From contig PLHD01000072.1 in assembly GCA_003138815.1 (NCBI GenBank), positions 14,946-57,645 on the forward strand: 42,700 nt of DNA, in the 5' to 3' direction. The notes beneath the pieces are model-generated. The model was not told the origin of the DNA. It saw only the letters and a program-made list of their open reading frames with translations, and made no database searches. This document shows, piece after piece, positions 18,387 through 20,575 of this stretch; the first letter of the stretch is position 1; the number at the start of each line of letters is the position of its first letter. Made by a program: the position numbers and the translations under genes. Origin of the DNA: Acidimicrobiaceae bacterium (lineage in GTDB: Bacteria; Actinomycetota; Acidimicrobiia; Acidimicrobiales; RAAP-2).

Positions 18387-18650
18387 TTAGTCGGGCTTCT
18401 TCGAGTGATACGGCGGAATATCTGGATGATGCTCGATGATGTGGTCGAGCTTGGCGTGCAGCTCGGCGGTGCCGGCCTCGATGTGTCGCTTCACGAACCT
18501 CTCGATCGCCTTGCGCATCGGCGGGTAGAAGACGGTAGTGGCGATCGCCGCCAGGATCACCCATATCAACGTCGCGACCACGTCGCCGGGGATGCCGCCG
18601 GAGCCGCCGGCGGGCCACACCCAACGCTGCAGGAAGGTTGAGGCGATCAT
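18387..18650 (-). CDS. Small membrane protein of a phage-like pair (holin-like)
   Basis: 87 residues from ATG 18650. A single strong hydrophobic helix (about residues 24-43, VVATLIWVILAAIATTVFY) is followed by a basic, amphipathic, charged C-terminal tail (FVKRHIEAGTAELHAKLDHI). The ATG overlaps the stop of the upstream gene (ATGA at 18650-18647), so the two are translationally coupled. The form (one helix, charged tail, paired with another small membrane protein) is seen in gene pairs near the lysis module of actinobacteriophages. A holin-like or accessory lysis role is only an inference. Confidence 0.6.
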   Translation of the reverse strand: MIASTFLQRWVWPAGGSGGIPGDVVATLIWVILAAIATTVFYPPMRKAIERFVKRHIEAGTAELHAKLDHIIEHHPDIPPYHSKKPD

Positions 18651-18964
18651 TCGGTCCCCTTGCTCAAGTGCTCGTGCAGCGCGGGGTGACGCAGCCGGTG
18701 CTGCTCCTTCAGCGCTGCGTGATCTTCCTTGTTCGTGTGCTTGTGGCACGTCTCGTAGTGCGTTCCCTCGACACGCCCGAGTCCGGCTTTGAGCGCGAGC
18801 CGCCAACAGTTCTGACACTTGTGGCGGTGATACATGCCGAGGATGCTGAGGAAGATGGCGCCTTCGGCGAAGTCAGCGCCGAATCCGCTCCAGAAGGCGT
18901 ACCACCGGCCAGCCTCGTCGTCGGTTCCGGTGACCTGGAGGAACCAGTGCCAGACTGCAATCAC
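18647..18964 (-). CDS. Small Cys/His-rich membrane protein resembling actinophage proteins
   Basis: 105 residues from GTG 18964, with GGGGAG five bases upstream as ribosome site. The N-terminal segment (WHWFLQVTGTDDEAGRWY then FWSGFGADFAEGAIF) leads into a hydrophobic helix. A Cys/His cluster follows: HKCQNCW and later YETCHKH, spaced as a possible zinc site. The C-terminal ~30 residues are His/Lys-rich. The order 'WYAFWSGFGSD...helix...C..C...GT....C..H' is one I associate with small proteins of Streptomyces and Mycobacterium phages and prophages; that memory is not checked. With the overlapping gene downstream it forms an isolated phage-like remnant or domesticated cassette. Confidence 0.6.
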   Translation of the reverse strand: MIAVWHWFLQVTGTDDEAGRWYAFWSGFGADFAEGAIFLSILGMYHRHKCQNCWRLALKAGLGRVEGTHYETCHKHTNKEDHAALKEQHRLRHPALHEHLSKGTE

Positions 18965-19172
18965 GATGCTCCCCAGATCGGCCGACGAATGAACGACACG
19001 ATCGTCATTGTAAGCGCTCGCCGAAATGAAACGTGGCTTTGGCGCGGACGAGCGGCGGCGCCCGCGAGAGAGGCGCGACGAATCACGGCCGTCGCGCGAG
19101 AGAAACGACGCGCAGGAAACGGCCTACGCAGGTGCGCCCATCGGCGCCGCGCCGCTCGGGTCGCGCCGTCGA
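18965..19172. other. Intergenic, nothing recognised
   Basis: Arg-rich pseudo-frames only; it joins the structured leader that begins near 19173, making about 400 bases without a gene. Confidence 0.4.
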
Positions 19173-19360
19173 CCGGTTCGGTTCGCGGGCCGAACCGGCC
19201 GGTATGTCTGGGCCGCGACCGGCGATTTGGTACCATCGCCGTGGAGCGATGAGGCCCGCCCCTTAAAGTGCCGAGCAGTCCGCGGCTGATGGCTTCTACC
19301 AGCGTGAAAGTGAGCTGGTAGGGCCGGTCCTCCGCACCCCTGCCATTACCGGAGGTGCAG
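19173..19360 (+). promoter_or_regulatory. Highly structured 5' leader of the cation/proton antiporter, candidate riboswitch or attenuator
   Basis: Four consecutive pairing elements precede the start codon. (1) CCGGTTCGG at 19173-19181 with CCGAACCGG at 19190-19198, a perfect 9-bp stem. (2) GGGCC at 19210-19214 with GGCCC at 19253-19257, enclosing the hairpin GGCGAT (19221-19226) / ATCGCC (19235-19240). (3) TACCAGC at 19297-19303 with GCTGGTA at 19314-19320. (4) CCTCCG at 19329-19334 with CGGAGG at 19350-19355, which buries the ribosome site of the gene. Element 4 looks like a translation-control platform. I do not recognise the aptamer; ion-sensing classes upstream of antiporters are the natural comparison. 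Confidence 0.5.
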
Positions 19361-20575
19361 ATGAACGTCTACTACGTGATGGCGATCTGGATTGGCATGG
19401 CGCTGCTGGCGTCCTTCATCAGCATCCGGGTCGGGATCTCCGTGGCCCTCATAGAGATCCTGGTTGGCGCCGTGTTCGGCAACATCCCGGGGATCATGGA
19501 GCACGTGCAGCAGACCGACTACACGACGCTGCTCGCCGGCGTCGGCTCGGTCCTGCTGACCTTCCTTGCCGGAGCCGAGATCGACCCGGTCTCGTTGAAG
19601 CGACATTGGAAGGCGAGCCTTTCGCTTGGTGCCGTCTCCTTCCTGCTGCCCCTCATCGGGGCCTTCTGCTTCGCGAAGTACCTGTTCGGGTGGAACCTGC
19701 ACGCGGCCGAGATCGCCGGGATCGCGCTCAGCACGACGTCGGTGGCGGTCGTCTACGCGGTGATGGTCGAGACGGGGCTCAACCGCGAGGACATCGGCAA
19801 GCTGATCCTCGCGGCTTGCTTCGTCACCGACCTCGGGACGGTCCTCGCGCTCGGCGGCCTGTTCGCGAACTACGGGTGGCTGCTGGTGGTGTTCATCGTC
19901 GTCACCGCGGTGGTCCTCTTCTTCCTGCCTCGCGTGCTGCGCTGGACCCTGGCGAACCTCGGCCACCGCGTGAGCGAACCCGAGGTGAAGGTGATCTTCG
20001 TCGTCCTGCTGGCGCTGGGCGGTCTGGCCACGGCCGCGGGCAGCGAAGCGGTGCTGCCGGCGTACGTGGCCGGTCTCGTGGTCGCGGGCGTCTTCATGCA
20101 GGACCGCGTGGTGCTCGACCGGATCCGCACGATCGCCTTCGCCCTCTTGACGCCCTTCTTCTTCCTGCGAGCCGGCACGCTCATCTCCGCCTCGGCCCTC
20201 GTCACCGGCGCGGGCGTGATCGCGGCGCTGTTCGGCGTGAAGATGGTGACGAAGTTCATCGGCGTCTGGCCCACCGCAACGGCGTTCCGTCTGCCCAAGC
20301 AGGAGCGGACCTACACGACGCTGCTGATGGCCACGGGTCTCACCTTCGGATCGATCGCCGCGCTGTTCGGGCTCACGAACCACCTCATCGACAAGGTCCA
20401 GTACACCGAGCTCGTCACGGTGGTGATCCTCTCGGCGTTCATCCCCACGTTGATCGCCCAGCAGTTCTTCCAGCCCGTCATAGAGATTGCGACCGAGGAG
20501 GAGGAGGCGCTCGGGGAGGAGGACATGTCGATCCAGCATCGCCACAAGCCTCCCCCCGAAGGCGAGGGCAACTGA
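19361..20575 (+). CDS. Cation:proton antiporter (Na+/H+ exchanger family)
   Basis: 404 residues from ATG 19361 (GGAGG at 19351-19355); a GTG at 19355 is in frame but overlaps the ribosome site. About twelve hydrophobic segments, no C-terminal TrkA-N domain. Typical features of the monovalent cation:proton antiporter families are IEILVGAVFGNIPG in TM2-3, LTFLAGAEIDPVSLKRHWK (the conserved F.AG.E.D segment) and LAACFVTDLGTVLAL (the transport-site Asp in TM6). The protein would exchange Na+ or K+ for H+ across the cytoplasmic membrane for pH or salt balance. Its long structured leader suggests regulated expression. The C-terminal ~25 residues are acidic then basic. Confidence 0.88.
   Translation: MNVYYVMAIWIGMALLASFISIRVGISVALIEILVGAVFGNIPGIMEHVQQTDYTTLLAGVGSVLLTFLAGAEIDPVSLKRHWKASLSLGAVSFLLPLIGAFCFAKYLFGWNLHAAEIAGIALSTTSVAVVYAVMVETGLNREDIGKLILAACFVTDLGTVLALGGLFANYGWLLVVFIVVTAVVLFFLPRVLRWTLANLGHRVSEPEVKVIFVVLLALGGLATAAGSEAVLPAYVAGLVVAGVFMQDRVVLDRIRTIAFALLTPFFFLRAGTLISASALVTGAGVIAALFGVKMVTKFIGVWPTATAFRLPKQERTYTTLLMATGLTFGSIAALFGLTNHLIDKVQYTELVTVVILSAFIPTLIAQQFFQPVIEIATEEEEALGEEDMSIQHRHKPPPEGEGN

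Follow-up and report, generated by a model that had tools for sequence, protein, structure and literature searches.

The leader of a cation/proton antiporter gene in an Acidimicrobiaceae bacterium (assembly GCA_003138815.1, contig PLHD01000072.1) raises the question of which signal its RNA senses and by which means that signal reaches the gene. The leader occupies positions 19173-19360 of the analysed DNA stretch of 42,700 nucleotides, referred to as the window, and the antiporter open reading frame begins at 19361. An initial annotation of this DNA had proposed a new ion- or pH-sensing RNA composed of four successive pairing elements, the last of which hides the ribosome site. Our analysis led to the conclusion that the leader is a divergent but real fluoride riboswitch, a known switch type on a known target gene class, and we are highly confident that it responds to fluoride and switches the antiporter gene on.

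Fluoride-family matches and linkage to the antiporter gene

The predicted protein carries an Na_H_Exchanger profile match (Table 1) and matched the CPA2 model TIGR00932 with E 2.2e-31, yet below that model's curated cut-off, while a sequence comparison with solved structures gave none at E <= 0.001. On the minus strand at 18387-18964, small open reading frames (tested parts 18387-18647 and 18647-18964) showed no Pfam family at E <= 0.001.

With the threshold lifted, a search of the 301 bases at 19100-19400 revealed a match to the Rfam fluoride family RF01734 at 19236-19305 with 27.2 bits and E 9.6e-6. The score does not reach the RF01734 gathering score of 34 bits, and at gathering scores the whole window matches no Rfam family; as this cut-off is a curation line and no structural trait, the sub-threshold score lowers only the automatic label. 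At E <= 0.001, RF01734 matches the 2.53-Mb genome in the antiporter leader (E 1.9e-5) and nowhere else.

A further model, R2, comprised 14 fluoride aptamers, all over the Rfam cut-off and none from this genus. Nine of them lie upstream of antiporter homologues (L005 with an intervening MFS gene), and five (L052, L053, L056, L057 and L058) were originally found by R1, a model of the genus leaders, so that the choice of these five is not fully independent of the window. R2 assigned 38.5 bits to the window aptamer, with E-values of 1.8e-14 in the window and 1.1e-12 genome-wide that are rough in view of 28 genome matches at E <= 10, and it found 10/10 orthologous leaders with 31.6-41.4 bits. The next-best genome match (C13, 20.5 bits, E 4.0e-5) is located within long open reading frames and was not accepted as a second riboswitch. 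Scores of individual leaders spread around the Rfam cut-off: the orthologous leader L004 exceeds it with 34.9 bits and L002 reaches 25.8 bits, while L003 has no Rfam match at E <= 0.05, but 34.2 bits by R2; the G137 leader, apparently the same as L003 over the compared stretch, gave 20.9 bits and E 0.002 with RF01734. The homologue leaders L073, L074, L077, L078, L079, L083 and L084 are all over the cut-off. L007, a 32-residue match, was set aside as too short and shows no Rfam match at E <= 0.05.

The aptamer accompanies the antiporter gene well beyond this genome. Within the genus, the antiporter was found in 11 of 99 genomes (E <= 1e-60), and an RF01734 match at E <= 0.01 lies upstream in all ten genomes, our own included, whose assembly contains the leader; in the eleventh, G060, the antiporter matched from residue 36 only, at a contig end. 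The class sample yielded the antiporter (E <= 1e-80) in four of 395 genomes: our own, a genus-mate, and two whose distant homologues show 48% identity and are both preceded by the aptamer (36.2 and 34.2 bits). In the phylum sample, nine of 396 genomes, again including our own, encode it at E <= 1e-90; the other eight homologues share 47-58% identity with the antiporter and all have the aptamer upstream, seven by RF01734 (E <= 0.05, five of those over the cut-off) and the eighth, L082, by R2 only with 23.3 bits. Linkage in the class and phylum thus refers to antiporter homologues within these two E-value limits. A Clostridia homologue is likewise preceded by the aptamer (RF01734 37.0 bits), and in a Deltaproteobacteria record an aptamer of 58.8 bits is followed by an MFS gene with the antiporter directly downstream. 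Searching the 395 class genomes with R1, built from whole genus leaders, gave a match at E <= 0.01 in 20; among these class matches, eight loci (L051-L058) were run through Rfam, where seven are over the cut-off and L054 scores 27.2 bits.

The aptamer sits in the 5' leader of a known fluoride-response gene class: in the accessible text of PMC11139923, which refers to its reference 67, Na+/H+ antiporters rank directly behind fluoride exporters in frequency among riboswitch-associated classes. Our case shares the same broad downstream gene class and differs in its setting, an Acidimicrobiaceae genus with a CPA2-type antiporter, whereas that part of the source does not name the antiporter family. 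A literature search on fluoride riboswitches combined with Acidimicrobi, expression platform and ribosome-site sequestration did not reveal this leader in titles and abstract openings.

Aptamer anatomy and predicted promoter

Table 1 Predicted elements of the antiporter leader in window coordinates.
Feature	Position	Strand	Details
Predicted extended -10 element	19228..19236	+	TGGTACCAT (TGnTAnnnT); conserved in 11/11 leaders
Helix P1 with 8-nt loop	19244..19261	+	19244-19248/19257-19261; A.C mismatch 19245/19260; RF01734 match
Pseudoknot 5' strand	19251..19256	+	GAGGCC; pairs with 19291-19296; two-sided changes at pairs 2, 3 and 5
Helix P3	19270..19286	+	GCCG 19270-19273/CGGC 19283-19286
Conserved 3' aptamer part	19287..19300	+	UGAUGGCUUCUACC; pseudoknot 3' strand 19291-19296; presumed linchpin A 19289/U 19297
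Switch hairpin H	19296..19321	+	CTACCAGC 19296-19303/GCTGGTAG 19314-19321; perfect 8-bp stem; overlaps pseudoknot 3' strand
Hairpin over ribosome site	19334..19358	+	GCACCCC 19334-19340/GGAGGTGC 19351-19358; computed fold
Shine-Dalgarno site	19351..19355	+	GGAGG; invariant in 11/11 leaders
CPA2-type cation/proton antiporter gene	19361..20575	+	PF00999, E 5.8e-39

The aptamer, at about 19244-19300, is separated from the antiporter start by 60 nt. It shares with the RF01734 crcB motif, of the Bacillus cereus crcB and Thermotoga petrophila types, the helix P1 with its 8-nt loop, P3, the pseudoknot, the linchpin A-U and a hairpin overlapping the pseudoknot 3' strand. Unlike these types, it has an A.C mismatch in P1, an imperfect pseudoknot pair 3 and a sub-cut-off Rfam score, and its output module differs in lacking a U tract after the hairpin and in having an extra hairpin over the ribosome site.

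The anatomy was examined in 11 distinct orthologous genus leaders, with repeat loci of the same genomes or leaders left out. For a wider comparison of 20 aptamers, ten of these 11 were combined with L006 and nine homologues from the class and phylum, leaving aside L023 (a near-copy), L005, L016, L082 and further genus matches. Covariation among homologous leaders, which the initial annotation had named as a test, is present in this set, as P1 and the pseudoknot both show two-sided pair changes. P1 pairs 2 and 4 occur as several standard pair types (pair 4 as C-G in 15, U-A in three and G-C in two aptamers), while pseudoknot pair 2 is A-U in 15 and G-C in five, and pair 5 is C-G in 18 and U-A in two. 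Mismatches were found at P1 pair 1 (3/20) and pair 2 (A.C, 9/20), at pseudoknot pair 3 (G.A, 8/20) and pair 4 (1/20), and once each at P3 pairs 1 and 3, with P3 counts that are biased towards pairing because its 5' arms were picked by best complementarity. Taken by themselves, the 11 genus leaders show a nearly invariant aptamer with slight covariation, in a count that omitted pair 7-20 (G-C in 11/11). P3 keeps its four pairs in every one of them, and three leaders show a two-sided change at one pair; the P1 A.C mismatch recurs in ten, and pseudoknot pair 3, a G.U in the window, is G.A in nine.

All 20 aptamers satisfied the anchor pattern that was applied, with one G of UGAUG replaced by A in four of them. 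Five positions, U 19287, A 19289, U 19290, G 19291 and U 19297, are invariant in all 20, and we take them to be U38, A40, U41, G42 and U48 of the T. petrophila aptamer. The roles of the A40-U48 linchpin and of U41 in the fluoride aptamer are addressed in the accessible portions of PMC8752731 and PMC11077080. The leader aptamer would be expected to bind fluoride together with Mg2+. Two homologous leaders, L080 and L082, contain an extra stretch in the aptamer junction between P1 and P3, which probably lowers their Rfam score.

Upstream of the aptamer, all 11 leaders share the pattern TG[GC]TAnnnT followed after 7-8 nt by GAGCG, which occurs once in the window when both strands are scanned. The extended -10 call is based on this conservation; no -35 element was identified, and a consensus sigma-70 scan returned no promoter at its threshold. 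Transcription is predicted to start at about 19243-19244, probably with the first aptamer nucleotides, and not at 19173, where the initial annotation had begun its RNA leader. The multi-stem unit that it had placed at 19210-19257 combines promoter DNA and the aptamer's first helix. A start downstream of 19320 would have been incompatible with the annotated leader, and the predicted one, at about 19243, lies upstream of that position.

Further upstream, CCGGTTCGG and CCGAACCGG form a perfect 9-bp inverted repeat (19174-19199). Because the repeat lies 5' of the conserved extended -10 element, it falls outside the RNA, and the best repeat in the matching stretch of the other ten leaders has 0 to 7 bp. 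We thus rejected it as part of the RNA. Located just upstream of the predicted promoter, it could be an operator or nothing.

Output module downstream of the aptamer

The antiporter gene class is already known to be under fluoride riboswitch control, and the expression platform in this genus has no U tract. The 8-bp core of hairpin H includes the linchpin U as well as the nucleotide that ends the pseudoknot; in the computed fold, H lengthens to GGCUUCUACCAGC/GCUGGUAGGGCC, thereby covering the pseudoknot 3' strand. Seven of its eight pairs are kept in 11/11 genus leaders and the eighth in 10/11. Terminator-type fluoride switches consist of such an overlapping hairpin followed by TTTT. Of these two traits the window has the hairpin and not the U tract, and none of the 11 genus leaders, the window included, has TTTT in the stretch from H to the start codon. 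Among ten homologous leaders, TTTT follows the overlapping hairpin in five (L006, L077, L078, L079 and L081), and none was flagged in L073, L074, L080, L083 and L084, nor in the window; in L082, TTTT was seen by inspection. The two phylum homologues L083 and L084 show a different arrangement, in which the fold joins the pseudoknot strand to the ribosome-site region by base pairing. According to the accessible text of PMC2864571, the crcB motif is widespread and terminators overlap it in many cases.

The second, predicted hairpin of the module covers the ribosome site. Its GCACC/GGUGC stem pairs in 48 of 55 cells over the 11 leaders, and 717 of 20000 arm permutations were as good, where this and the following permutation figures are not strict probabilities because the leaders are related. 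The last stem of the initial annotation, CCTCCG (19329-19334) with CGGAGG (19350-19355), is complementary as described, but only 44 of its 64 cells are paired, with 16411 of 20000 permutations as good, and GCACC/GGUGC competes with it over the same ribosome site. An alignment-free duplex test of the ribosome-site arms gave a mean of -8.6 kcal/mol for cognate versus -7.6 kcal/mol for swapped arms, with 700 of 20000 permutations as good, or 250 of 20000 without the near-duplicates L023 and L026. The original description holds in so far as the leader of the cation/proton antiporter is structured, presumably senses an ion and has a stem covering the ribosome site.

From this arrangement a mechanism can be proposed. 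Fluoride with Mg2+ would lock the pseudoknot and the linchpin pair, and the locked pseudoknot would withhold the strand GGCUUCUAC from hairpin H. Without fluoride, H would form, the downstream hairpin would hide the Shine-Dalgarno site, and no antiporter would be made. The aptamer family, its helices and pseudoknot, the overlap between H and this pseudoknot, the missing U tract and the gene linkage are computational results, whereas we infer fluoride binding, the direction of the on-switch, its translational output and its physiological role, in which more antiporter in response to fluoride would help to bring cytoplasmic pH and the ion balance back to normal after HF entry. The hairpin over the ribosome site suggests that the output is translational, a reading towards which we lean with some reserve, as the link from the aptamer to this hairpin is the weak step of the model. 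When the pseudoknot strands were blocked in the energy model, the mean unpaired fraction of the ribosome site was 0.18, compared with 0.19 without blocking (11 leaders). With 30 nt of coding sequence included, pairing between the ribosome site and its upstream arm has a probability of 0.12 in the window, and thus occurs in a minor fold only; under the same conditions and without blocking, it is at least 0.57 in nine of the 11 leaders. Since blocking released no ribosome site and pairing in the window is this low, the translational step is unsupported by thermodynamics.

The same fluoride aptamer could alternatively act by premature termination, with H stopping the polymerase without a U tract or exposing the leader to Rho. 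The missing release of the ribosome site in the folding calculations and the TTTT stretches of the homologous leaders, L082 among them, fit this explanation, whereas the consistent lack of TTTT in the genus, the better fit of the ribosome-site stem to its own arm than to swapped arms, and the pairing of the pseudoknot strand with the ribosome-site region in L083 and L084 speak against it. On balance we regard termination as rather unlikely, and translational control as the preferred output.

A broader and tentative reading, which we consider possible but would not yet favour, is that one pair of fluoride aptamer and CPA2 antiporter has exchangeable output modules across the phylum, namely an intrinsic terminator, direct capture of the ribosome site by the pseudoknot strand as in L083 and L084, and the genus hairpin. 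The genus module would then be a former terminator hairpin which, devoid of its U tract, governs a separate ribosome-site hairpin. The connecting helix could be formed by GGUAGGG (19317-19323) and CCCUGCC (19338-19344). This helix appeared in the lowest-energy fold of three of the 11 leaders (the window, L002 and L026) when the 5' strand of H was removed; for the best duplex of the freed H strand with the downstream spacer, between 19 and 325 of 1000 shuffles, depending on the leader, did equally well, which makes the helix suggestive only. If true, the exchangeable modules would represent a traceable conversion from a transcriptional to a translational fluoride switch.

Ligand alternatives and further fluoride loci

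A variant of the fluoride fold with a changed ligand could be considered because P1 pair 2 and pseudoknot pair 3 are mismatched and a G-to-A change occurs in UGAUG in four of the 20 aptamers. It is very unlikely, as the mapped fluoride-site and linchpin positions are invariant throughout the 20 aptamers, and as a genus-mate (G040) carries a higher-scoring RF01734 match of 45.2 bits (L016, 1501-1562) upstream of an inorganic pyrophosphatase gene, a fluoride-linked class in the accessible text of PMC11139923.

Even less probable is a new leader that senses Na+, Li+, pH or c-di-AMP. It is suggested by the gene class only. The nhaA-I and nhaA-II Li+ and the DUF1646 Na+ riboswitches are associated with antiporter genes, with nhaA-I and nhaA-II linked to NhaA genes (pfam06965, pfam07399) and not to PF00999, according to the accessible part of PMC9646797. 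The Rfam comparison with nhaA-I, nhaA-II, DUF1646 and ydaO that had been recommended for this leader gave no match to E = 5 on 19100-19400, nor did any of them reach its gathering score elsewhere in the window, a result that assumes the presence of these families in Rfam 15. Besides RF01734, the sole match listed to E = 5 on the 301 bases was a microRNA model (E 1.6). With a strong fluoride match as the only riboswitch hit, the proposal of a new sensing RNA is not needed.

Chance pairing in GC-rich DNA without any RNA element, for which the ordinary fold energy might speak, is practically negligible, given the homologous leaders, their covariation and the phylum-wide association with the gene. 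The fold energy of 19140-19380 corresponds to z -1.21 (26 of 200 dinucleotide shuffles at least as stable) and that of 19242-19375 to z -1.19 (24 of 200 shuffles), and we rejected fold stability at z of about -1.2 as evidence for an RNA; the signal comes from homology and covariation. The successive pairings originally described do exist as the 9-bp repeat, the 8-bp stem and the CCTCCG/CGGAGG complementarity, but their fold energy is ordinary and their limits were off.

Several other loci relate to fluoride. The genome itself (G000) contains two CrcB fluoride-channel genes in tandem on contig C46 (92823-93532), without an RF01734 match there; with this pair present, a fluoride-exporting antiporter as sole defence of the genome was rejected. 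Two or three RF01734 matches per contig (E <= 0.01) with CrcB pairs nearby were found on G019 C40, G045 C56 and G128 C93, which look like fluoride-resistance islands, and in G019 and G128 one fluoride riboswitch precedes a MutS_V-domain gene (L042 and L039). Sub-cut-off RF01734 matches also occur beside NADH dehydrogenase-like PF00146 genes in G116 (L025, 28.3 bits) and G114 (L029, 22.8 bits), the latter being doubtful.

Taken together, a candidate new ion sensor is replaced by a fluoride switch that the automatic Rfam cut-off had missed, and, in the phylum sample, fluoride sensing is linked to one antiporter lineage. A role in fluoride response is thereby predicted for genes named only as cation/proton antiporters, and their differing output modules offer a natural series for studying how a riboswitch changes its expression platform.
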